Shown: positions 2,466 through 18,204 of the stretch, piece after piece
How positions within the stretch are numbered: position 1 is the first letter of the stretch
Layout of the letters: the number at the start of each line of letters is the position of its first letter
From: Myxococcota bacterium
GTDB taxonomy: Bacteria > Myxococcota_A > Bradymonadia > UBA7976 > UBA1532
NCBI GenBank assembly: GCA_963169045.1
Contig: CAUJDF010000087.1
Span: 1 to 64,000 of the forward strand
Direction of reading: 5' to 3'
Length of the DNA stretch: 64,000 bases
Translations under genes and position numbers: made by a program
Notes under the pieces: model-generated
Databases searched by the model: none
What the model saw: the letters and a program-made list of their open reading frames with translations, nothing else
Told to the model about the DNA's origin: nothing

Positions 2466-3161
2466 ATGTCGGACGCGCTCGTCACCGTGCTGCTCGTCGA
2501 GGACGACGACCGCCTCGCCGCGTTGACCGCCGAGTACCTCGGGCGCAGCGGCCTCGCGGTGACGCGCGCCGGCGACGGCGAGGCGGCGCTCGAGCTCGCG
2601 GCGCGGCAGCGCTTCGACGTGGTGCTGCTCGACGTGATGCTGCCGGGCCTCGACGGCGTCGAGGTCTGCCGGCGGTTGCGGGCGCGATCCGACGTGCCGG
2701 TGATCATGATCACGGCCCGCGGCGAGGAGGCCGACCGCGTGATGGGCCTCGAGGGCGGCGCCGACGACTATGTCGCCAAGCCGTTCTCGCCGCGGGAGCT
2801 GCTGGCGCGCATCCGCGCCCAGGTCCGGCGCGCACGCGGGCAGTCCGGGCCGCCGGTGCGCACGGTCCGGGCCGGTGGCCTCGAGCTCGACCCCGGCGCG
2901 CAGCGCGCCACCCTCGACGGACGGCCCCTCGACCTGACGTCCTACGAGTTCGCCCTGCTCTTCGCGCTTGCGAGCCACGCGGGGCGCGTGCTCTCGCGCG
3001 AGCGCCTGATGGAGCTGGCGCGCGGCCGCGCCGACGAGGCCTTCGACCGCTCCATCGACGTCCACGTCTCGCGCCTGCGCCAGAAGCTGGGCGACGATCC
3101 CCGCCACCCGCGCCGCATCCGTACCGTGCGCGGCGCCGGCTACCAGCTGCTGGAGACCTGA
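2466..3161 (+). CDS. OmpR/CpxR-family response regulator
   Basis: A 231-residue two-domain DNA-binding response regulator. The receiver domain (residues about 6-118) has the acidic cluster EDDD at 12-15, the phospho-acceptor Asp56 in LLDVMLP, the conserved Thr in MITARG and Lys in AKPFSPREL. The C-terminal winged helix (about 135-228) carries the typical LTSYEFALL and RTVRGAGYQ motifs of the OmpR family. It lies between a CpxP-like gene and its kinase, whose GTG start is only 3 bases beyond the stop, so the pair is surely co-transcribed. A likely target is the TTCACA repeat at 1927-1942. Confidence 0.95.
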   Translation: MSDALVTVLLVEDDDRLAALTAEYLGRSGLAVTRAGDGEAALELAARQRFDVVLLDVMLPGLDGVEVCRRLRARSDVPVIMITARGEEADRVMGLEGGADDYVAKPFSPRELLARIRAQVRRARGQSGPPVRTVRAGGLELDPGAQRATLDGRPLDLTSYEFALLFALASHAGRVLSRERLMELARGRADEAFDRSIDVHVSRLRQKLGDDPRHPRRIRTVRGAGYQLLET

Positions 3162-3163
3162 TC

Positions 3164-4459
3164 GTGCGTCGCCGGCACCGCCTGTTCTGGCGGGTGTTCC
3201 TGCACGGCGTGGTGCTGCTGCTGGCGACCGCCGCGGCGGGTGCCCTCGTGCTGTGGGCGGACGACCGCGAGCCGCCGTGGCGCGGGGTGGCGGAGCGCGC
3301 CACGCGGCAGATCGCCGGGGCGCCGCCCGAGGCGCTCGGCGAGCGCGTGCGGCTGCTCGCCGACGTACTCGGCGTCGGTCTCGCGGTCTACGACGGGGCC
3401 GGCCGGCGCCTGGCCGCGGGCGGCGAGGCCCCGCCCGGTCCCCTGCCCTCGCCGCCGGCAGCCCACGGCCACGCCCGCGCGCCCGACGGCTGGCTGATGT
3501 TCGAGCCGCTGCCGGACGGGCGCTATGCGGTCGTCCGCGGCGGGCGGCGTCGCATGGCGGGCCACGTGCTGCTCATGCTGTGCGCCGTCTTCGCCGCGCT
3601 GGCGCTGGCCTCCATCCCGCTCGTGCGCGCGATCGTCCGCCCGCTCGAGCGCATCGGCGCCACCGCCCGCCGCATCGGCGCCGGCGATCTCGGCGCGCGC
3701 ACGGGTGTCCGCCGGCGCGACGAGGTCGGCGACCTGGCGCGCGCCGTCGACGAGATGGCCGAGCGCCTGCAGCGCCTGCTCGCCGCCGAGAAGCAGCTGC
3801 TGGCCGGCGTCTCCCACGAGCTGCGCACGCCGATGGCCCGCATCCGCGTCGCGCTGGCGCTGGCGGCCGACGACGCGGCGGCGCCCGGCGGGGGCGTCGG
3901 GGAGCTGCGCGCCCGCCTCGCCGACATCGAGCGCGATCTCGGCGACCTCGAGCGCCTCGTCGACGACGTGCTGCTCGCCGCGCGCCTCGAGGCCGGCGCC
4001 GCCGATTTCCCCGTGCGCCGCGCGCCCGTCGACCTGCAAGCGCTGCTCGACCGCGCCCGCCGACGCTTCGCGGAGCGGTACCCGGACCACGCGCTCGAGG
4101 TCGTCGTCGCCGGGGGGCCGCTCAAGGCCGACGCCGCGCTCCTGGGACGCGTCGTCGACAACCTGCTCGAGAACGCCGGGCGGCACGGCGGCCGCCACGT
4201 CGCGCTCCGCGCCACCGTCGGCGAGCGCCTGCGCGTCGAGGTGGCGGACGACGGCCCCGGCCTCGCCCCCGAGGACGGCGAGCGCGTGTTCGCGCCATTC
4301 TTCCGCGCCGACGCGAGCCGCGCGCGCGCCACCGGCGGGGTCGGCCTCGGCCTCGCCCTCTGCCGCGCCATCGTGCGCGCCCACGGCGGCGAGATCGGCG
4401 CGGTCCCCCGGGCCGGTGGGGGCGTGGTCTTCTGGTTCGAGGTACCGGCCACCGCCTGA
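3164..4459 (+). CDS. CpxA-like membrane sensor histidine kinase
   Basis: A 431-residue sensor kinase with GTG start. One membrane segment lies at about residues 8-30 and a second at 131-154. They enclose a roughly 100-residue periplasmic domain that should face the CpxP-like protein. A HAMP linker follows (about 150-205). The HisKA dimerisation domain carries the phospho-acceptor His in SHELRTP near residue 218. The ATPase domain has its N box (DNLLENAGRHG), G1 box (DDGPGLAP) and G2 box (GVGLGLAL). It completes a cpxP-cpxR-cpxA-like module and phosphorylates the regulator just upstream. The sensed signal is not visible in the sequence. Confidence 0.94.
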   Translation: MRRRHRLFWRVFLHGVVLLLATAAAGALVLWADDREPPWRGVAERATRQIAGAPPEALGERVRLLADVLGVGLAVYDGAGRRLAAGGEAPPGPLPSPPAAHGHARAPDGWLMFEPLPDGRYAVVRGGRRRMAGHVLLMLCAVFAALALASIPLVRAIVRPLERIGATARRIGAGDLGARTGVRRRDEVGDLARAVDEMAERLQRLLAAEKQLLAGVSHELRTPMARIRVALALAADDAAAPGGGVGELRARLADIERDLGDLERLVDDVLLAARLEAGAADFPVRRAPVDLQALLDRARRRFAERYPDHALEVVVAGGPLKADAALLGRVVDNLLENAGRHGGRHVALRATVGERLRVEVADDGPGLAPEDGERVFAPFFRADASRARATGGVGLGLALCRAIVRAHGGEIGAVPRAGGGVVFWFEVPATA

Positions 4460-8805: not shown

Positions 8806-10389
8806 TCAGGGCGGCCGCGCCCCGAAGCGCGCCGCGTACCGCGCCCGCACACCCGCCGCCGCGCGCACGTCGCCCAACGCCTCGTAGGCGGCGAGCAGCT
8901 GCATCCACGCCGTCCGCTGCTCCGGATCGAGCACGACCAGCCGCTCGAGGTGCGCCGCCGCCTCCGCCGCGCGCCCGTCCTCGAACGCCAGCGCCGCCAG
9001 CCAGCCATAGGCGAACACCGTCTCCTCCCAGCGCTCGAGCGCCTGCCGGCACAGCGCCGCCGCCTCGCGCCGCCGCCCCCGGACGACCTCGAGCTGACAC
9101 CGCACGACCAGGACGCCCGGCGCGTCGCCGAACCGCTTCGCCAGCGCCTCGATCGGCGGGGCGGCCGCGGCCCCGTCGCCCTCTGCCAGCGCGTCGAGCG
9201 CGGCGACGACGCCGCTCACGAACGCCGGCTCGTCGTCGGCGCGGACGCCGAAGCGCTCCGCCCGAGGCGGCAGCCCGAAGCGCCGGCGCAGGCGCACGTT
9301 GGCCGCGCCGAGCGCCTCCGCCTCGGCGCCCGCCGGGAGGTGGGCCAGCGCCGCCTCCGCCCGGCTCACCGCGTACCCGGCCTGGTACGCCCGCACGAGA
9401 TACGCCCACTGCGCCGCCGCGGGTGACGGCCCCATCGCGGCGCGCAACCGGTCGATCGCCGCCAGCGCCGCCGTCACGTCGCCCTTGCGGAGCGCGGCGT
9501 CGCTCGCCGCCGCCAGGCGCTTCAGCTCGTCGGCCTGGCGCTCCTGCGCCTTCCGCTCGCCGAGCATCGCCAGGTAGTGCCCGCGGTCGACCGGATCCCA
9601 GCCATCCCATCCCTCCATGGCTGCTCTCAGATCGGCCACCAGCTTCGCCTCGTCGCGCACCTCGAGCGCGCGCTCGGCGAGGACGCGGCGCAGGATGCCT
9701 TCGACGCGCGGCGCAAAGAACGACGCGCGGTGGTCGTACACCGGCGAGAGGATGTCTTCGGTGTCGCGCACGTGGGGCGCCCCCAGCGTGTGCGCCCACT
9801 CGTGCAGGAACAGCGTGAGCGCCTTGTGTTCGAGGCGCTGGTGGTAGAGCGCGTCCCGGTCCGCCACGTCGGTGTGGGTCAGGCTCGCGGCCAGCGCGTC
9901 GTACTCGGCGACGTCGTGCAGGCCGCGCATCACGATGTGTCGCGAGAAGTAGCGGGCCGCGCCGAGCTGGTGCTGGCTCGAGGTCACGACCGGGAGCGCC
10001 GCCATCAGGCCGACGACCCAGTCGACGTCCTCGCCCGCATCGAGCGCCTCCAGCGCGTCGAGCGCGTCGGCGGCCTGGCCCGCCGGCTCGGCGTCCCACT
10101 CGCGATACTCCGCCACGGCGAAGCGCACGCCGAACGCGGGCGCGGTGATGCGCTCGGCCCGACGCAACAGATCGCCGAAGCGCTGCTGCCAGTCGCGCGC
10201 CTCCCTGCGGTAGCCCGCCGTCGCCCAGACGCGCACCATGTACGTGCGCGCCTCGACGGGTCGCGCCGGCGGCTCGGGCGCCTCGAGCGCCGCCGGCCGC
10301 AGCGACTCGCGCAGCCCCGCGTCGGGATCGCGAAAGCAGCTCGCCAGCATCGCCGCGAGCACCGTCACGCCGGCGAGCGCGCGTCCCAC
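8806..10389 (-). CDS. lipoprotein with metzincin-like HEXXHXXGXXH zinc site and TPR-like C-terminus
   Basis: A 527-residue protein with a lipobox-type signal (LAAMLASC at about residues 11-18). The sequence HEWAHTLGAPH near residue 192 fits the extended zinc-binding signature HEXXHXXGXXH of metzincin metalloproteases, so a peptidase active site is likely. The Met-turn methionine was not identified with certainty. The C-terminal half (about 270-525) is Ala/Leu/Glu-rich helical sequence with TPR-like periodicity. It is the middle of three minus-strand genes for exported proteins, 45 bases from the beta-helix gene and 4 bases from the NTF2-fold gene. Substrate unknown. Confidence 0.78.
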   Translation of the reverse strand: MGRALAGVTVLAAMLASCFRDPDAGLRESLRPAALEAPEPPARPVEARTYMVRVWATAGYRREARDWQQRFGDLLRRAERITAPAFGVRFAVAEYREWDAEPAGQAADALDALEALDAGEDVDWVVGLMAALPVVTSSQHQLGAARYFSRHIVMRGLHDVAEYDALAASLTHTDVADRDALYHQRLEHKALTLFLHEWAHTLGAPHVRDTEDILSPVYDHRASFFAPRVEGILRRVLAERALEVRDEAKLVADLRAAMEGWDGWDPVDRGHYLAMLGERKAQERQADELKRLAAASDAALRKGDVTAALAAIDRLRAAMGPSPAAAQWAYLVRAYQAGYAVSRAEAALAHLPAGAEAEALGAANVRLRRRFGLPPRAERFGVRADDEPAFVSGVVAALDALAEGDGAAAAPPIEALAKRFGDAPGVLVVRCQLEVVRGRRREAAALCRQALERWEETVFAYGWLAALAFEDGRAAEAAAHLERLVVLDPEQRTAWMQLLAAYEALGDVRAAAGVRARYAARFGARPP

Positions 10390-10393
10390 GGCG

Positions 10394-11737
10394 TCAGCAG
10401 GGACAGTCGAGGAAGGGCGTGGTGATGTCTTCGGTGACGCGCCACACGCCCGCGTCGGGGCGCGCGAGCCGGTCGCGCTGCAACAGCTCGGGCACGCCGT
10501 CGCCGTCGAGGTCCGCCGCCGCCTCCGGCGCGAAGAACGTGCCCGGCGCCTCGGGATCGCTCAGCAGCACGAGCCGCCGGCCGTCGAGCCGCCAGAGCGC
10601 CCAGAGCTCGCCGTAGAAGTCGCCGCAGCCGTCGCCGGCCCGCGCCGACACCGCCACCCACGTCGTCGGCCCGCGGAACACGACCACGTCTCCCGCGCCG
10701 CCGTCCCACGGCCCCTTCCCCGCGTAATTGCTGGCGAAATCGGTCTGGATGGCTTTGTGCGCCGGCAGCGCGCGGAACGCGTTGCGCGCGCGCTTCTCGA
10801 GCGCGGCGTCCTCGGCGGCCGCGAAAATGGCGGGCGCCGGCGCGTCCGCCGGTCGCGCGTAGACGGCGCGCTCGCAGCCGGCCAGCGGCGCCACCAGCAG
10901 CCGCCCGGCCTCGCCGGCGAGGTCCCACAGCTCGGCGGCGATCTGCGCGGGCGGCGCCGGCGCCGTGCCCTCCTCCCGGCCCTCCCAGCCCTGAACGACG
11001 CCGAAGTGCGGGATCGCGCGCGCGAGGAGCCGCGGTCGCCCGAGCTTGCCGCGACAGACCTCGCCCTGCGCGCCGTAGCCGACGACCTCCCGGCCCTCCC
11101 AGGCCTGCCAGGGGCCGAGGTCGAGCAGCGCCGCCTCCGCCACCCGCGCCGGCACGGTCACCTCCGGCGCGGCGTGCCGCAGGTCGCCGGGCGTCGCGTC
11201 GAGCACCACGTGGCCGCCCTCGATCACCATCATCAGCCGCGCCGCGTCGAGCGCGCCGACCTCGGGCGGCCGCAGCGTCGAGGCGAGCATCTCCTCGCGC
11301 GCGATGCGCAGGCCGCCGCCCTCCTCGACCAGGAGGAGCTGCTTGGGGCCGCGGTCCTCGAACTTCCCCGAGGACCACGTCTGGGTGAAGGTCACCACCG
11401 CCAGCGCGCCCGCCGCGCTGACCTTGCGATCGTCGGCGGTGACCTTCATCGGCTTCTTGAACATGCGGGCGCGGTCGGCGACCCAGCCCGCGCGGTCGAA
11501 CCGCGTCGTGCGCGGTCCGGCCCGCTTGATGCCCTCGAAGCGCCTCGCATAGAGCGCCTCGTAGGCTGCGAAGTCGCCGCCGTTCTGCGCCGCCAGCCAG
11601 GCGTCGACCAGCGCGCCGGCGGCCGCCGGCTCGACCTTCGCCGCGCGCGCCGGCTTCGTCTCGGCCGCCGCCGTCGTCACCACCGGCGCGCCGAGGAGCG
11701 CGCCCGCCAGCACCCATGCGACCGTCACTCGTCCCAC
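10394..11737 (-). CDS. secreted protein with SnoaL/NTF2-like domain
   Basis: A 447-residue protein starting at GTG 11737, chosen because GGAGG lies five bases upstream and a signal peptide (VAWVLAGALLGAPVV then Ala-x-Ala) begins there. Residues about 40-150 resemble the SnoaL-like (NTF2 fold) domain often attached to L,D-transpeptidases: VDAWLAAQNGGD, FDRAGWVADRAR, then a strand-rich end. The central part is unassigned. Near the C-terminus DLDGDGVPELL resembles an FG-GAP/VCBS calcium-type loop. It is the first gene of a three-gene minus-strand run, 4 bases before the metzincin-like gene. No enzymatic role can be assigned. Confidence 0.75.
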   Translation of the reverse strand: MGRVTVAWVLAGALLGAPVVTTAAAETKPARAAKVEPAAAGALVDAWLAAQNGGDFAAYEALYARRFEGIKRAGPRTTRFDRAGWVADRARMFKKPMKVTADDRKVSAAGALAVVTFTQTWSSGKFEDRGPKQLLLVEEGGGLRIAREEMLASTLRPPEVGALDAARLMMVIEGGHVVLDATPGDLRHAAPEVTVPARVAEAALLDLGPWQAWEGREVVGYGAQGEVCRGKLGRPRLLARAIPHFGVVQGWEGREEGTAPAPPAQIAAELWDLAGEAGRLLVAPLAGCERAVYARPADAPAPAIFAAAEDAALEKRARNAFRALPAHKAIQTDFASNYAGKGPWDGGAGDVVVFRGPTTWVAVSARAGDGCGDFYGELWALWRLDGRRLVLLSDPEAPGTFFAPEAAADLDGDGVPELLQRDRLARPDAGVWRVTEDITTPFLDCPC

Positions 11738-11814: not shown

Positions 11815-12177
11815 ATGCAGCTCGCCGCCCGCGTCGCCGTCGCCTTCGTCGCCCTCGCGCACCTGTGGTTCCTGGTGCTCGAGATGTTCCTGTGGACGCG
11901 CCCCTTCGGACGCAAGACGTTCCGCATGTCCGAAGAGCAGGCGCAGGCGACCGCCGTCCTCGCCGCCAACCAGGGCCTCTACAACGGCTTCCTGGCGACG
12001 GGCCTGATCTGGGGCCTGCTGATCGACGCGCCGACGTTCGCGCGCGCGGTGCAGACGTTCTTCCTGTCGTGCGTGCTCGTGGCCGGCGTCTACGGCGGGG
12101 CCACCGCGTCGCGCGCCATCCTCTTCGTGCAGGCGCTGCCGGCGGCGATCGCGCTCGCCCTCGTCTCGTTCGCCTGA
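11815..12177 (+). CDS. DUF1304-family small membrane protein
   Basis: A 120-residue hydrophobic protein with about four membrane helices (roughly residues 5-24, 55-75, 78-100 and 103-119). Between helices 1 and 2 it carries EMFLWTRPFGRKTF followed by AANQGLYNGFLA, which is the DUF1304 signature as I know it; length also fits. Function of the family is not established. It is transcribed away from the NTF2-fold gene and 36 bases before a response regulator, so it may be read together with the two-component genes. Confidence 0.85.
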   Translation: MQLAARVAVAFVALAHLWFLVLEMFLWTRPFGRKTFRMSEEQAQATAVLAANQGLYNGFLATGLIWGLLIDAPTFARAVQTFFLSCVLVAGVYGGATASRAILFVQALPAAIALALVSFA

Positions 12178-12213: not shown

Positions 12214-12885
12214 GTGCGCATCCTGCTGGTCGAGGACGAACCGAGGATCGCGGGCTTCGCCGCGCGGGGCCTTCGCGAAGAGGGCCACCAGGTGACGCTC
12301 GCCGCCGACCTCGCGGCCGCCCGCGCGGCGCTCGCCGCCGACGAGTTCGACCTGCTCGTGGTCGACCGGATGCTGCCCGACGGCGACGGCCTCGACCTCG
12401 TCCGCGAGCTGCGCCGCCACGGCGAGCGCCTGCCCGCCATCTGCGTGACGGCGCGCGACCGCGTCGAGGAGCGCGTCGAGGGCCTCTACGGCGGCGCCGA
12501 CGACTACCTGGTCAAACCCTTCGCCTTCGACGAGCTGCTGGCCCGCATCGCCGCCGTGACGCGCCGCGCCGGCGCCGCCGAGCGCCTCACCGTCGGCGAC
12601 CTCGAGATCGACCTCGCCGCCCACCGCGTGCACCGGGGCGGTCGCGAGATCCGCCTGACCGCCAAGGAATTCGCGCTGTTGCGCTGCCTCGCCGAGAACG
12701 CGGGACGCGTGATGAGCCGCACCCGCCTGCTCGAGCGCGTCTGGGACGTGAGCCACGACCCGGGCACGAACGTGGTCGACGTCCAGATCAGCTACCTGCG
12801 CGCGAAGGTCGACCAGGGCTTCGATCGGCCGCTCATCCACACCGTGCGCGGCGTCGGCTACGTCCTCGAGGACGCCCGGCGTTGA
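12214..12885 (+). CDS. OmpR-family response regulator
   Basis: A 223-residue regulator starting with GTG. The receiver domain has EDEP at residues 7-10, phospho-acceptor Asp51 in VVDRMLP, the Thr in VTARD and Lys in LVKPFAFDEL. The C-terminal winged helix (about 125-220) has the OmpR-family LTAKEFALL and HTVRGVGYVLED motifs. Its stop overlaps the TTG start of the kinase gene by 3 bases. The pair stands directly upstream of the cytochrome b-DHC/SHP/DHC genes, so those cytochromes are the likely regulated targets. No operator repeat stood out in the short gap before 14258. Confidence 0.94.
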   Translation: MRILLVEDEPRIAGFAARGLREEGHQVTLAADLAAARAALAADEFDLLVVDRMLPDGDGLDLVRELRRHGERLPAICVTARDRVEERVEGLYGGADDYLVKPFAFDELLARIAAVTRRAGAAERLTVGDLEIDLAAHRVHRGGREIRLTAKEFALLRCLAENAGRVMSRTRLLERVWDVSHDPGTNVVDVQISYLRAKVDQGFDRPLIHTVRGVGYVLEDARR

Positions 12886-14204
12886 GCGCCACCCTGGCCG
12901 GGCGCCTCGTGGCGCGCGGGACGGCGGTGACCATCGGGGCGCTGCTCGTGGTCGGCGTGGCGACGGGGGCCCTGCTGCACGCGACGCAGGTCCGCGCGCT
13001 CGACCGGGCGCTGTTGGCGGCGGCCCACGCCGAGGCGCACCCGCAGCCCGACGGGCGCTGGGAGGTGGAGCGCGGCCGCTCCCCGGTCGAGGTCTGGCTC
13101 GCCGAGCCGGGGGACGCCCGCGTCCCGCGGGACCTGTGGGCCGAGGCGCTGGCGGCGCGGGGCCCGACCTTCGCCGAGGTGGGCGACCGGCGCCTGCTGC
13201 TGCTCGTCGCCGAGCCCGAGCACGACGACGACGACGAGGACCACGACCACGTCGTCGTCGCGGCGGCCGCGCAGCGACCGACATTGCGCCGCACGATCGG
13301 CGTGTTCTCGTTGACCTACGCCGCGGTGGCGCTCCTGGCGGCGCTCGGCGGGGCCCTCCTGCAGCGACGTGTCGTGCGCCGCGCGCTGGCGCCGCTCGAG
13401 CAGGCGCGGGAGGAGGCGGCGCGCGCGACCGGCCACGGCGCCGGCGCCCGGCTGACGGCGCAGGGGCCGGCCGAGGTCCGGACGCTCATCGAGGCGATGA
13501 ACGCGCTCCTCTCGCGCCTGGATGTCGCCTTCGGCGCGCAGGCCCGCTTCACCGCCGAGGCGGCGCACGAGCTGCGCACCCCGGTCACCGTGATGCTCGG
13601 CGAGCTCGACGTGACGCTGCGCCGCGCGCGCACGCCCGAGGCCTATCGCGAGGCGCTGCTCACGGTGCGCGAGTCGGTGGAGCGGCTGCGCGCGCTCGTC
13701 GAGGGCCTCAACCTGCTGGCGCGCATCGATGCGGGGCAGGCCGAGCAGCTTCGCGAACCGACGGACGCCGCCGAGGTGGCGCGTCGCGCCGCCGCCGCCG
13801 AGGCGAGGGCGCTCGAGGCCGCGGGGTGCCCGCTGTCGATCGAGATCGCGGCCGACCCCGTGCTGCGGGTGCACGGCGCGCTCGTGGAGTCGGCGCTCGG
13901 CAACCTGCTGCGCAACGCGGCGGCGTACGCGCCCGGCGGCCCGGTGACGTTGCGCGTCGAGGCCGACGCCACGCGCGCGACGTTCACCGTCGACGACAGC
14001 GGGCCCGGGGTGCCGCCCGACGCGCGCGAGGCCCTGTTCGACCGGTTCGCGCGCGGGGGCGAGGCGCGCCGTCGCCACCGCGCCGGCCTGGGCCTCGGCC
14101 TGCCGCTCGCCCGCGAGGTCGCGCGACGCCACGGCGGCGACTGCCGCCTCGAGTCGGCGCCCGGCGGCGGCTGCCGCGCCGTGCTCACGCTGCCGATCTC
14201 ATGA
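12882..14204 (+). CDS. sensor histidine kinase with acidic/His-rich periplasmic segment
   Basis: A 440-residue kinase. The most upstream in-frame start is TTG 12882, overlapping the regulator's stop; GTG 12909 is possible. Membrane helices lie at about residues 10-32 and 138-160. The periplasmic loop between them ends with EHDDDDEDHDH (near 112-122), a run of acidic and His residues that could bind metal cations. A HAMP-like linker follows. The HisKA box is AHELRTP near residue 228, and the ATPase domain has GNLLRNAAAYAP, DDSGPGVP and GLGLGLPLA. It pairs with the regulator before it. Overall layout resembles CusS/CzcS-type or QseC-type kinases; the signal is unknown. Confidence 0.92.
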   Translation: MSATLAGRLVARGTAVTIGALLVVGVATGALLHATQVRALDRALLAAAHAEAHPQPDGRWEVERGRSPVEVWLAEPGDARVPRDLWAEALAARGPTFAEVGDRRLLLLVAEPEHDDDDEDHDHVVVAAAAQRPTLRRTIGVFSLTYAAVALLAALGGALLQRRVVRRALAPLEQAREEAARATGHGAGARLTAQGPAEVRTLIEAMNALLSRLDVAFGAQARFTAEAAHELRTPVTVMLGELDVTLRRARTPEAYREALLTVRESVERLRALVEGLNLLARIDAGQAEQLREPTDAAEVARRAAAAEARALEAAGCPLSIEIAADPVLRVHGALVESALGNLLRNAAAYAPGGPVTLRVEADATRATFTVDDSGPGVPPDAREALFDRFARGGEARRRHRAGLGLGLPLAREVARRHGGDCRLESAPGGGCRAVLTLPIS

Positions 14205-14257
14205 ACGTCTAATCCGCGATTCACCGGCAACCAATGCGGCGCCTCTAGGGTGGCCGC

Positions 14258-15334
14258 ATGGCGAAGATGCGGATCTGGGACGTGCCGACGCGGACGTTCC
14301 ACGGGCTCCTCGGGGCCGCGGTGGCCGGCGCGTGGCTCACGGCGGGAGATGCCCGGTGGCTGCACCTGCACGTGCTGGCGGGCACGCTGGCGGCCGCGCT
14401 GACCCTGTTCCGCGTGCTCTGGGGCTTCATCGGGGGCCCGCACGCCCGGTTCCGCGCCTTCCTGAGGGGGCCGCGCGACGTCCGGGCGCACATCCACGAC
14501 CTGCTCGCGGGCACGGCACACCGGCCGGCGGGCCACGATCCGCTCGCGGGCTGGGCGATGGTCGCCGCCATGGCGCTGGTGCTGCTGCTGGCAGTCACCG
14601 GCGTGTGGGTGCTCGGCGGCGAGGAGGGCCAGGGACCGCTCGGCGGCGTGCTCTCCGTCGGCCAGGGGATCGCGCTGCACGGTCCGCACGGGGCCCTGTC
14701 GCTGGCGCTGCTCTGCTGGCTCGGCCTGCACCTCGCCGGCGTCGTCCTGGCCAGCCTGCGGCACGGCGAGGCTCTGCCGCTGGCGATGGTGACGGGCCGC
14801 AAGCGCGCGGTCCCCGGCGCGCCGTCGTCGCCGGCGCACCGCGGCGTCGCGCTGCTGCTCGTCGGCGCGATCGCCGGCGGCGCACTGTGGTCCGCGCGCG
14901 GCGTGCTCGCCGGCGAGCGCCCGTACGCCGGCCGCGCGCTGCCCGACGACCCGGAGTGGCGGAGCGCCTGCGGCGAGTGCCACCTCGCCTACCCGCCCCA
15001 CCTGCTGCCCGCGCGCTCCTGGACCGCGCTGATGGACGGCCAGGCCGACCACTTCGGCGAGGACCTCGGCCTCGAGGCAGAGCCCGCGGCGCGTGTGGAG
15101 CGCTTCCTCACCTCGCACGCCGCCGAGCGCGAGGTCAACGAGGCGGCCTGGTACGTCGCGCACACGACGCCCCCCGCCGAGACGCCGCTGCGCGTCACCG
15201 CGCTGCCCTGGTGGCGCGAACGACACCCCGTCCCCGACGACGACGCCGGCCGCTGCGGCGACTGCCATGCCGACGCCGAGGCGGGCACGTTCGTCGACGG
15301 CGCCATGACCCGAAAGGAAAGGAGCTCTCGATGA
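14258..15334 (+). CDS. cytochrome b561-type membrane protein fused to dihaem cytochrome c (DHC) domain
   Basis: A 358-residue fusion. Residues about 1-185 form a cytochrome b561 of the bacterial type with four membrane helices and paired His residues (TRTFHG, LHLHVLAG, LHGPHGALS, LGLHLAG) for two b haems. A fifth helix (about 190-210) leads into a periplasmic domain with two CXXCH c-haem sites, CGECH near 237 and CGDCH near 332. The sequence after the first site (LAYPPHLLPARSW) is the DHC signature. Free-standing cytochrome b, DHC and SHP are normally encoded together. Here b and DHC are one chain, suggesting electron flow from quinol to periplasmic SHP. ATGA overlap with the next gene. Confidence 0.88.
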   Translation: MAKMRIWDVPTRTFHGLLGAAVAGAWLTAGDARWLHLHVLAGTLAAALTLFRVLWGFIGGPHARFRAFLRGPRDVRAHIHDLLAGTAHRPAGHDPLAGWAMVAAMALVLLLAVTGVWVLGGEEGQGPLGGVLSVGQGIALHGPHGALSLALLCWLGLHLAGVVLASLRHGEALPLAMVTGRKRAVPGAPSSPAHRGVALLLVGAIAGGALWSARGVLAGERPYAGRALPDDPEWRSACGECHLAYPPHLLPARSWTALMDGQADHFGEDLGLEAEPAARVERFLTSHAAEREVNEAAWYVAHTTPPAETPLRVTALPWWRERHPVPDDDAGRCGDCHADAEAGTFVDGAMTRKERSSR

Positions 15335-15708
15335 ACCTCGCCCCTCTCGCCGTCGCCGCGCTGCTGGCGGCGCCCGGCCTGATCGACGCCTACCGGGCCG
15401 CCGGCGCCGGAGCCCCCGACGCGGCGCGCGGCCGCGCGTTCTGGACGCAGTCGTTCGCCGCTCCGGACGGCGGCGTCGCCCGCGCCTGCACGTCCTGCCA
15501 CGGCCCCGACCCGCTCGGACCGGGCCGGCACGTGAAGACCGGCGAGGTCCTCGCCGCCATGGCGCCCGCGGTGGAGCCGACGCGCTTCACCGATCCCGCC
15601 GAGGTCGAGAAGTGGTTCAAGCGCAACTGCAAATGGACGGTCGGCCGCGAGTGCACGCCCCAGGAGAAGGCCGACGTCGTGCTCTTCCTGACGGAGGTGA
15701 AGCGATGA
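15331..15708 (+). CDS. shp: SHP-like monohaem cytochrome c (DUF1924 family)
   Basis: A 125-residue protein with an N-terminal hydrophobic signal and one c-haem site CTSCH (about residues 55-59). The downstream motifs GRHVKTGEV, RFTDPAEVEKWFKRNC and GRECTPQEKADV match the DUF1924 family, which includes the sphaeroides haem protein (SHP). In SHP an Asn is the sixth haem ligand and is displaced when O2 or NO binds; the Asn in FKRNC is the obvious counterpart, and the Cys after it could pair with that in GREC. ATG 15331 follows AAAGGAAAGGAG and overlaps the upstream stop. It sits between two DHC-type electron donors. Physiological role of SHP is unsettled. Confidence 0.85.
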   Translation: MNLAPLAVAALLAAPGLIDAYRAAGAGAPDAARGRAFWTQSFAAPDGGVARACTSCHGPDPLGPGRHVKTGEVLAAMAPAVEPTRFTDPAEVEKWFKRNCKWTVGRECTPQEKADVVLFLTEVKR

Positions 15709-16205
15709 GGGCCGCGGCGACGCTGCTGGCGGTGCTGGCCCTGGCGGGCGGCGCGCTGGCGCACGACGACGATGCCGACGAGGACCTCGGGCGGCGCGCG
15801 CCGGCCGCGGCGTCGAGCCCGCAGTACCGCAAGGAGTGCGGCAGCTGTCACGTGGCGTACCCACCCGGCCTGCTGCCCGCACGCTCGTGGACGCGCCTCA
15901 TGGGCGGCCTCGGGGACCACTTCGGCGAGAGCGCGGAGCTGCCCGACGCGACGCGCGCCGCGCTGACGACATGGCTCGAAGCCCAGGCGGGCGGACGGCG
16001 CGTCCCCGCCGCGGAGACGCCGCTGCGGATCACCGAGACGCGCTTCTTCCGCCGCGAGCACGACGAGATCCCCGCGCGCCTCGTGCGCGACAACCCCGAA
16101 GTGAAGACGTTTGCCCGCTGCAACGCCTGTCACGCGGACGCGTCGGACGGGCGCTTCGACGAACACACGGTGCGCATCCCCGGCCACGGCCGCTGGGACG
16201 ATTAG
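15705..16205 (+). CDS. periplasmic dihaem cytochrome c (DHC family)
   Basis: A 166-residue protein with a cleavable signal peptide (to about residue 20, Ala-x-Ala then HDDDADED). It has two c-haem sites, CGSCH near residue 45 and CNACH near 139. Its core (VAYPPGLLPARSW then GDHFGE) is nearly the same as in the DHC half of the fusion protein at 14258, so the two are paralogues. In known clusters DHC passes electrons to SHP. It overlaps the SHP stop by 4 bases (ATGA), and its own stop overlaps the convergent gene's stop by 4 bases. A soluble shuttle beside a membrane-bound version is the simplest reading. Confidence 0.9.
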   Translation: MRAAATLLAVLALAGGALAHDDDADEDLGRRAPAAASSPQYRKECGSCHVAYPPGLLPARSWTRLMGGLGDHFGESAELPDATRAALTTWLEAQAGGRRVPAAETPLRITETRFFRREHDEIPARLVRDNPEVKTFARCNACHADASDGRFDEHTVRIPGHGRWDD

Positions 16206-16621
16206 ACTCCGCCGCCGGCATCGCGCGCCGCCTCGCGCGCGACCGCCGCGCCGAGCTCGGCCTCGAACGCCGCTTCGTCGGTCACCACGCGGAACCGGTC
16301 GCCGAACTGCCCGAAACGCGACACGAATTCGGCCGAGACGCGCATGAAGGGCGCCTGCACGAGCATCACCGTTCGCCACCCCGCCTGCCGCATGAGCCAC
16401 GCGGCCCACTGACCGCTCACGTCGATGCTCGCGCCGCGCGCGCCGCGCGCATCGATGAAGAGCTGCCCCTCGCCGCCGAGGAGTCGCTCGACCTCGAGCA
16501 TCGGGCGGTCGCCGAACTGCCCGACGTCGTGGCCGGCGAAGTGGATGAGCGCGATGCCGGGCGCCGGACGGACGAAGGCCATGGCGCAGGTCGGCGAGGT
16601 CAGGAGGGCGCGATCTTCCAT
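16202..16621 (-). CDS. hypothetical protein, STAS/SpoIIAA-like in appearance
   Basis: A 139-residue soluble protein with no signal or membrane segment. Alternating strands and helices (GIALIHFAGHD, GQLFIDARGARGA, AAWLMRQAGWRTVMLVQ) resemble a STAS or SpoIIAA-like alpha/beta fold, but no family motif is certain. Short proteins of this look are common in myxobacterial genomes. It is convergent with the dihaem cytochrome gene, sharing the bases TTAG so that both stop codons overlap, and divergent from cydA across a 100-base gap. Function unknown. Confidence 0.7.
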   Translation of the reverse strand: MEDRALLTSPTCAMAFVRPAPGIALIHFAGHDVGQFGDRPMLEVERLLGGEGQLFIDARGARGASIDVSGQWAAWLMRQAGWRTVMLVQAPFMRVSAEFVSRFGQFGDRFRVVTDEAAFEAELGAAVAREAARDAGGGV

Positions 16622-16722: not shown

Positions 16723-18204
16723 GTGGACGATCCGGTCTGGCTGTCGCGCGTTCAGTTCGCGCTGACGATCATGTTCCACTACCTCTTCCCGCCCCTGACC
16801 ATCGGCATGGGCGTCGTCCTCGTCTACCTCGAGGGCATGTTCCTCCGCACCCGTCAAGCGATCTATGAGACCTCGGCCCGCTTCTGGACGAAGGTCTACG
16901 CCCTCAATTTCGCCATGGGGGTGGCCACCGGCATCGTGATGGAGTTCCAGTTCGGCACGAACTGGGCCGTCTACAGCCGCTTCGTGGGTGACGTGTTCGG
17001 CTCGGCGCTCGCGGCGGAGGGCATCTTCGCCTTCTTCCTCGAGTCGGGCTTCCTGGCGGTGCTCGTCTTCGGCTGGGACCGCGTCGGGCCGAAGTTCCAC
17101 TTCTTCTCGACCGTGATGGTGGCGCTCGGCTCCATCTTCAGCTCGATTTGGATCACCGTCGCCAACTCCTGGCAGCAGACGCCCGCCGGCCACCACGTGG
17201 TGAACGGGCGCGCCGAGATCGTCGACTTCTGGGCGATGGTCTTCAATCCGAGCACGGTGAACCGCCTGGTTCACGTCTGGCTGGGCGCGTTCATCCTCGG
17301 CGGGTTCTTCATCATGAGCATCTCCGCCTGGTACGTGCTCGAGAACAAACACCAGGAGTTCGCGCGCCGCTCATTCACGGGCGCGCTCCTGCTGGCGTCC
17401 CTCGCGAGCTGTCTGCAGGTCGTCAGCGGCCACAGCAACGCCAAGATGGTGGCGCGGGAGCAGCCGGCGAAGCTCGCCGCTTTCGAAGCGCACTACGAGA
17501 CCGGCCCCGCCGACCTGTCGCTCTTCGGCATCCCCGACGAGCGGGCGGGCACGTTGCGCGCCAACATCGCCGTCCCCGGCCTGCTGAGCTGGCTCGTGCA
17601 CGAGGACACGCGCGCCTCCATCCCCGGCCTCGATCGCTTCCGGCCCGAGGACCGCCCGCCGGTGACCGTGCCCTTCGTGAGCTACCACGTGATGGTCGCG
17701 CTCGGGATGTACTTCGTGGCGCTCACGCTGCTCGCGCTGTTGCTGCGGTGGCGCGGCACGCTCTTTCAGAAGCGCTGGCTGATGTGGGTGTTCGTGTTGT
17801 CGGTGCTCGGACCGTTCGTGGCCAACGAACTGGGCTGGGTCGCCGCCGAGGTGGGTCGTCAGCCGTGGATCGTGCACCCGACCGTGACGTGGACGGACGC
17901 CCAGCACCTCGCGCTGGGCGCCGACGGCTTCGTCCGGTACGACACGACGTCGGCCCTGCGGACGAGCGAGGCCGTCAGCGCCTCCGTCCGCCCGGAGCAG
18001 GTCTTCGGATCCATCGTCCTGTTCAGCCTGATCTACCTGCTGCTGTTCGCCGTCTGGATCCTGGTCCTCAACAGCAAGATCCAGCACGGCCCGGAGCCGG
18101 TGTCGATGCCGGCGAGCACGCGCCCGGGCGGCGCGGTGGCGGCGGCGGCCGATCGCGTGGACCGCGAAGCGAGCATGACCGAAGCCAAGGAGCGCGACCG
18201 GTGA
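16723..18204 (+). CDS. cydA: cytochrome bd ubiquinol oxidase subunit I
   Basis: A 493-residue membrane protein that oxidises quinol and reduces O2 with haems b558, b595 and d. GTG 16723 follows GGCGGAGG. The family's landmarks are present: the N-terminal [19 protein letters not shown] with the haem His, [16 protein letters not shown], the [13 protein letters not shown] segment, the conserved [24 protein letters not shown], and [14 protein letters not shown] near the C-terminus. The quinol loop is short, as in the CIO-type subfamily. The C-terminal 30 residues are polar and cytoplasmic. It is translationally coupled to cydB. Tolerance of NO and H2S by bd oxidases fits the neighbouring SHP cluster. 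Confidence 0.97.

Follow-up and report, generated by a model that had tools for sequence, protein, structure and literature searches.

Positions 12214-16205 of the window (the whole 64,000-nucleotide stretch analysed, from a Myxococcota bacterium with a 9 Mb genome) hold five plus-strand genes, which were taken from the list of open reading frames and identified with Pfam. A gene for an OmpR/CopR-type response regulator (RR, 12214-12885; PF00072, Response_reg, and PF00486, Trans_reg_C) is followed by one for a sensor histidine kinase (HK, 12882-14204, TTG start; PF00512, HisKA, and PF02518, HATPase_c) with a short periplasmic sensor and a D/E/H-rich stretch. The remaining three genes encode a 358-aa fusion of cytochrome b561 with a dihaem cytochrome c (DHC) at 14258-15334 (PF01292 and PF09626, together with a structure model and homologues), the monohaem cytochrome c SHP (sphaeroides haem protein, DUF1924) at 15331-15708, and a soluble periplasmic DHC (sDHC) at 15705-16205. 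The gene identities proposed in a first-pass annotation of this DNA were borne out by the Pfam matches, as were its overlapping starts, which amount to 4 nt at each of the RR/HK, fusion/SHP and SHP/sDHC junctions. Purine-rich ribosome-binding sites (AGGAG, GGAGGT) were seen upstream of SHP and sDHC. A stretch of 53 nt lies between HK and the fusion, which means that regulator and cytochrome genes are possibly carried on different transcripts; a scan for consensus promoters and terminators gave no signal clearly exceeding chance.

The SHP gene product matched PF09086 at 4.3e-35 (120.4 bits against a cut-off of 22.5) and has a single CxxCH motif, CTSCH. In its alignment with 1DW0 (E 2.7e-24) the Trp..Asn-Cys..Cys ligand region is conserved, with KWFKRNCKWTVGREC of SHP aligned to KWLGRNCNSVIGRDC of 1DW0, including the Asn sixth ligand, the Trp four residues earlier and the cysteine pair after it. 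In Shewanella, the annotated shp gene is SO4484. The sDHC, in which both CxxCH motifs are present, matched PF09626 at 2.1e-35 (122.7 bits) and 3U99 with an E value of 9.3e-36. Its mature N-terminus bears an acidic/histidine-rich stretch, HDDDADED (15762-15785), and such stretches were also found in the soluble DHC of L014, a locus of the same phylum, and in the sensor of the window kinase (EHDDDDEDHDHVV, 13218-13256). Judged from sequence, metal binding by the stretches of the kinase sensor and the sDHC is possible.

On the 5' side, a gene for a DUF1304 membrane protein (11815-12177; PF06993, E 4e-43) ends 36 nt before RR on the same strand and probably lies outside the SHP system. On the 3' side, cydA starts at 16723, 518 nt downstream of sDHC, and a minus-strand open reading frame of 139 residues (16202-16621), which had no Pfam or NCBIfam match, lies between them. 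The operon had been described as standing next to cydAB, which is correct as to position, but because of this distance and the intervening opposite-strand frame cydAB is regarded as a neighbour outside the operon. A functional link was rejected on account of the same antisense frame and of the other SHP loci examined, at none of which was a nearby cydA found.

The cytochrome b561-DHC fusion

The fusion is a single open frame in which Pfam places Ni_hydr_CYTB at residues 7-180 (60.9 bits) and DHC at residues 234-345 (94.5 bits). Its AlphaFold model (pLDDT 89.6, pTM 0.86) has five long helices ahead of the DHC domain (residues 9-27, 32-58, 95-122, 141-169 and 195-217), the last of which agrees with the linking helix noted when the two domains were first read as one polypeptide. 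Charge counts assign loops 60-98 and 164-196 to the inside and DHC to the outside, and together with them the model suggests that the fused DHC sits in the periplasm. In an alignment of 35 fused sequences, the four axial histidines of the dihaem b561 half (H15, H38, H144 and H158) and the first DHC haem site (C238/C241/H242 with H265) were invariant, and the second site (C333/C336/H337 with H323) was conserved in at least 90%. The fused copy therefore has the two CxxCH motifs and bis-His ligands of a DHC, in addition to its Pfam score. In Foldseek searches the DHC half of the model matched 2FW5, 2FWT and 3U99; for the membrane half, weaker matches were obtained, to FdnI of formate dehydrogenase-N and E. 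coli superoxide oxidase (5OC0; Foldseek E 0.11, TM-score by target 0.71).

Distribution and origin of the fusion

The search for b561-DHC fusions elsewhere, which the first-pass annotation had proposed, returned 40 loci besides the window, all from independent assemblies: three in other genomes of the phylum, one on a Ruegeria plasmid and 36 in a scanned collection that spans 84,980 species. SHP adjoins the fusion in 38 of the 40, the exceptions being L045, which is cut by a contig end, and L061. A sequencing error at the junction, or a stop between the domains in an independent assembly, had been named as the objection to a genuine fusion and was ruled out by the same fusion in these 40 loci. 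These loci carry the SHP operon and the b561-DHC chimera far past the set of species listed in 2010 (see below). At L061, a fused CytB-DHC gene (9968-11155) was seen with neither SHP nor a second DHC recognised across a 21-kb stretch.

A tree was built from 109 DHC domains, and a single branch (SH-aLRT 94) separated the 41 fused ones from all others. A quick tree of the b561 domains required four changes, but a tree constrained to hold the fused rows together had a better likelihood than the quick tree and was not rejected (AU p 0.73). The DHC grouping and the constraint test favour one old duplication and fusion as the simplest reading of the sequences, over the several origins considered likely in the 2010 survey (PMC2909971); the trees were built from short alignments by quick searches, and the epsilonproteobacterial chimeras, left out of the sample, are not covered by this result. 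The window fusion and that of L014 are sisters in both the DHC and b561 trees. Among 58 genomes searched as relatives, SHP was found in the host genome only, and across the phylum it occurred in 13 of 379 genomes, a figure that includes the host and two marginal matches. Such a scattered distribution points to horizontal gain or repeated loss of the operon.

Comparison with known SHP operons

A CytB/mDHC chimera encoded with SHP and sDHC was described by Meyer, Kyndt and Cusanovich in 2010 (PMC2909971) in Rb. sphaeroides, the species in which SHP was discovered, and five further species with the chimera were named in the same survey, which also proposed the electron path from quinol through CytB and DHC to SHP. 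The fusion, offered in the first-pass annotation as a new clue, has thus been known since 2010, and the window operon belongs to the published CytB/mDHC-SHP-sDHC type. Nor do the three proteins wholly lack a proposed purpose, since an NO dioxygenase activity of SHP is cited (PMC2909971). O2 binding by Rb. sphaeroides SHP and its reduction by DHC are also published; by itself, the fusion leaves the purpose of SHP unsolved. The window and Rb. sphaeroides operons share the three genes and their order, the b561-DHC fusion, the canonical SHP ligand residues and the proposed electron path, whereas sequence identity between them is modest and the Rb. sphaeroides operon has no regulator genes (PMC2909971).

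The layout of the window operon was found again in two Rhodobacterales operons, L024 (5405-9808, on a plasmid of Ruegeria sp. THAF33) and L062 (7540-11934), which carry the same genes in the same order with regulators present and a kinase of the SK1 type. At L024 the arrangement RR-HK-fusion-SHP-sDHC equals that of the window in order and strand, but its kinase has the SK1 motif RSRSLWD, a PepSY gene is annotated beside the pair and the operon lies in a copper island. As L024 carries regulators, the 2010 finding that Rhodobacteraceae operons lack them (PMC2909971) fails for part of the wider group. SHP operons with an unfused CytB, as in Burkholderia, Shewanella, Allochromatium and others, likewise contain SHP, DHC and b561, usually with a two-component pair; unlike the window operon, they have separate b561 and DHC genes, a variable gene order and sensors of the SK1 or SK2 type. 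E. coli superoxide oxidase CybB (5OC0), which has no DHC or SHP partner, has the same four-helix dihaem b561 fold as the membrane half. What is new relative to the published operons is mainly the kind of sensor that apparently controls this one.

The two-component system and the HK-fusion gap

The best NCBIfam match of RR was TIGR01387 (231 bits, under the cut-off of 279). The kinase scored 208.0 bits against the CztS/SilS/CopS heavy-metal sensor model TIGR01386, short of the curated cut-off of 292.55, and 115.8 bits against the model for QseC, which SK2 sensors resemble (cut-off 475), where only the kinase core matched. The survey of 2010 discussed three sensor kinases, SK1-SK3, the last of them the Campylobacter/Arcobacter type, and metal genes for SHP operons (PMC2909971). 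SK1 motifs were absent from the window HK, one or both being present in L024, L060, L062 and others, and BLAST comparison with kinases near SHP elsewhere aligned essentially the kinase core, with no sensor similarity found. Instead, 20 other genomes of the phylum encode relatives that share 43-55% identity with the window HK, and 33-47% within the sensor region. The AlphaFold model of the sensor region (12960-13325; pLDDT 89.8) gave no significant Foldseek match, and VIA-align returned Cache/PAS-like rows with Z up to 8.6 and CzcS at Z 5.1, no ligand being identified by either search; the predicted fold looks Cache/PAS-like.

The genes adjoining these relatives include an unfused cytochrome b561 (L122), ApbE (L143, L144) or an ApbE-like protein (L154), a Ferric_reduct-like protein, Haem_bd proteins (L145, L149), small cytochromes c (L157, L158) and RND pumps (L155, L156), a trend rather than a count, as it was drawn from our own gene calls with some weak family matches. 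Tentatively, the window kinase may belong to a sensor class of the phylum that pairs repeatedly with interchangeable membrane redox modules (b561, ApbE with a ferric-reductase-like protein, Haem_bd, RND pump and, here, SHP), marking a periplasmic redox or metal stress circuit that recruited the SHP operon; it would then add a fourth type to the SHP regulators SK1-SK3. That this regulator class recurs next to other membrane redox modules gives a way of testing what induces SHP operons. The best kinase relative, at L122 (7286-9541; 54% identical), directly precedes the unfused cytochrome b561 gene, in an 8-Mb genome that is a single contig and has no SHP.

The gap between HK and the fusion (14205-14257) contains a TCTAAT box at 14208, a candidate regulator site. 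TCTAAT was the most enriched hexamer after the HK stop codon, occurring at three of 16 loci against five of 2979 background stretches (uncorrected p 3.5e-6, about 0.01 when corrected for all hexamers), a p-value weakened by the motif having been noticed before the test. The box recurs after HK in L122 (twice, with 11-bp spacing) and in L143, two of the closest relatives of the kinase. An 11-bp repeat spacing is usual for OmpR-type regulators. The shared box supports a link of the RR/HK pair to the cytochrome genes and suggests a separate promoter for the latter. Of the earlier proposal that regulators and cytochromes form one unit, the connection is therefore credible, though the two are set apart by 53 nt that include a candidate regulator site.

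Proposed electron path and alternatives

The locus is probably an SHP operon of the CytB/mDHC-SHP-sDHC type that connects the quinone pool through b561 and DHC to SHP, under stress-tuned two-component control exerted via the gap. The b561 half, with its four invariant histidines and two haems b, would trade electrons with the membrane quinone pool, and the fifth membrane helix would place the fused DHC in the periplasm, from which electrons could pass to SHP either directly or via the soluble DHC. The ferrous SHP haem would then drop its Asn ligand and react with O2 or NO. A two-component system whose family occurs in the phylum, tuned to a periplasmic stress signal, would turn on the cytochrome genes through the HK-fusion gap, a metal or an oxidant being a more likely signal than NO as such. 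What was observed comprises gene content, overlaps, ligand residues, the topology model and fusion-SHP conservation; the direction of electron flow, the terminal reaction in vivo, the signal and the control of the operon are what we infer, direction and signal being the least certain steps. The first-pass annotation had taken the fusion as direct support for electron transfer from quinol to SHP; the chain is plausible and an association of the two halves is supported, but a fusion does not show the direction of flow. Models for MenD, MqnE, MqnC and UbiA, bearing on the quinone type, gave no match above cut-off.

The alternative that fares best is that the operon serves a metal or oxidant stress response, the chain being an electron sink or source for the stressor and the chemistry of SHP with O2 or NO incidental. 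The Ruegeria copy adjoins a copper ATPase, CzcD lies beside SHP in several species (PMC2909971), and SHP of Allochromatium ranked with the most strongly induced genes when pyrite was the electron donor, CzcA-type efflux genes next to it rising as well (PMC11267869). The sensors most similar to the window kinase are heavy-metal sensors, and RND pumps adjoin two or three of its relatives. Against this, neither regulator attained the NCBIfam metal-sensor cut-offs, the window operon has no adjoining metal genes, and among 119 genes neighbouring fused operons, scanned with Pfam, no metal family was enriched, PepSY alone being so beside scattered housekeeping families. We consider this alternative possible, at somewhat less than even weight.

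Electrons might also run the other way: superoxide, reduced sulfur or some other periplasmic reductant would donate them to SHP and DHC, and the b561 half would deliver them to quinone, as CybB does. By its title, Vandenberghe 1998 (cited in PMC2909971) describes DHC as a cytochrome of low potential; transfer from quinol to DHC may therefore be uphill and need help from the membrane potential, or else the flow could be reversed. The resemblance of the b561 half to superoxide oxidase, which feeds quinone, and the strong induction of the Allochromatium operon on pyrite (PMC11267869) would fit the same direction. The fold, however, is also that of FdnI-type b subunits, and the demonstrated reaction, as cited, is the reduction of SHP by DHC (PMC2909971); reverse flow is accordingly judged unlikely.

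That RR/HK is a resident regulator with an unrelated regulon, beside which the cytochrome genes landed by chance, appears similarly improbable: SHP is confined to the host among the 58 relatives, the HK homologues in 20 genomes are mostly without SHP and the nearest fused operon, L014, has no adjoining regulator pair, but HK relatives repeatedly adjoin redox genes, unfused b561 included, and the TCTAAT box is shared with the HK-effector gaps of two of them. A second response regulator/histidine kinase pair is present in the same window, at 2466-4459.
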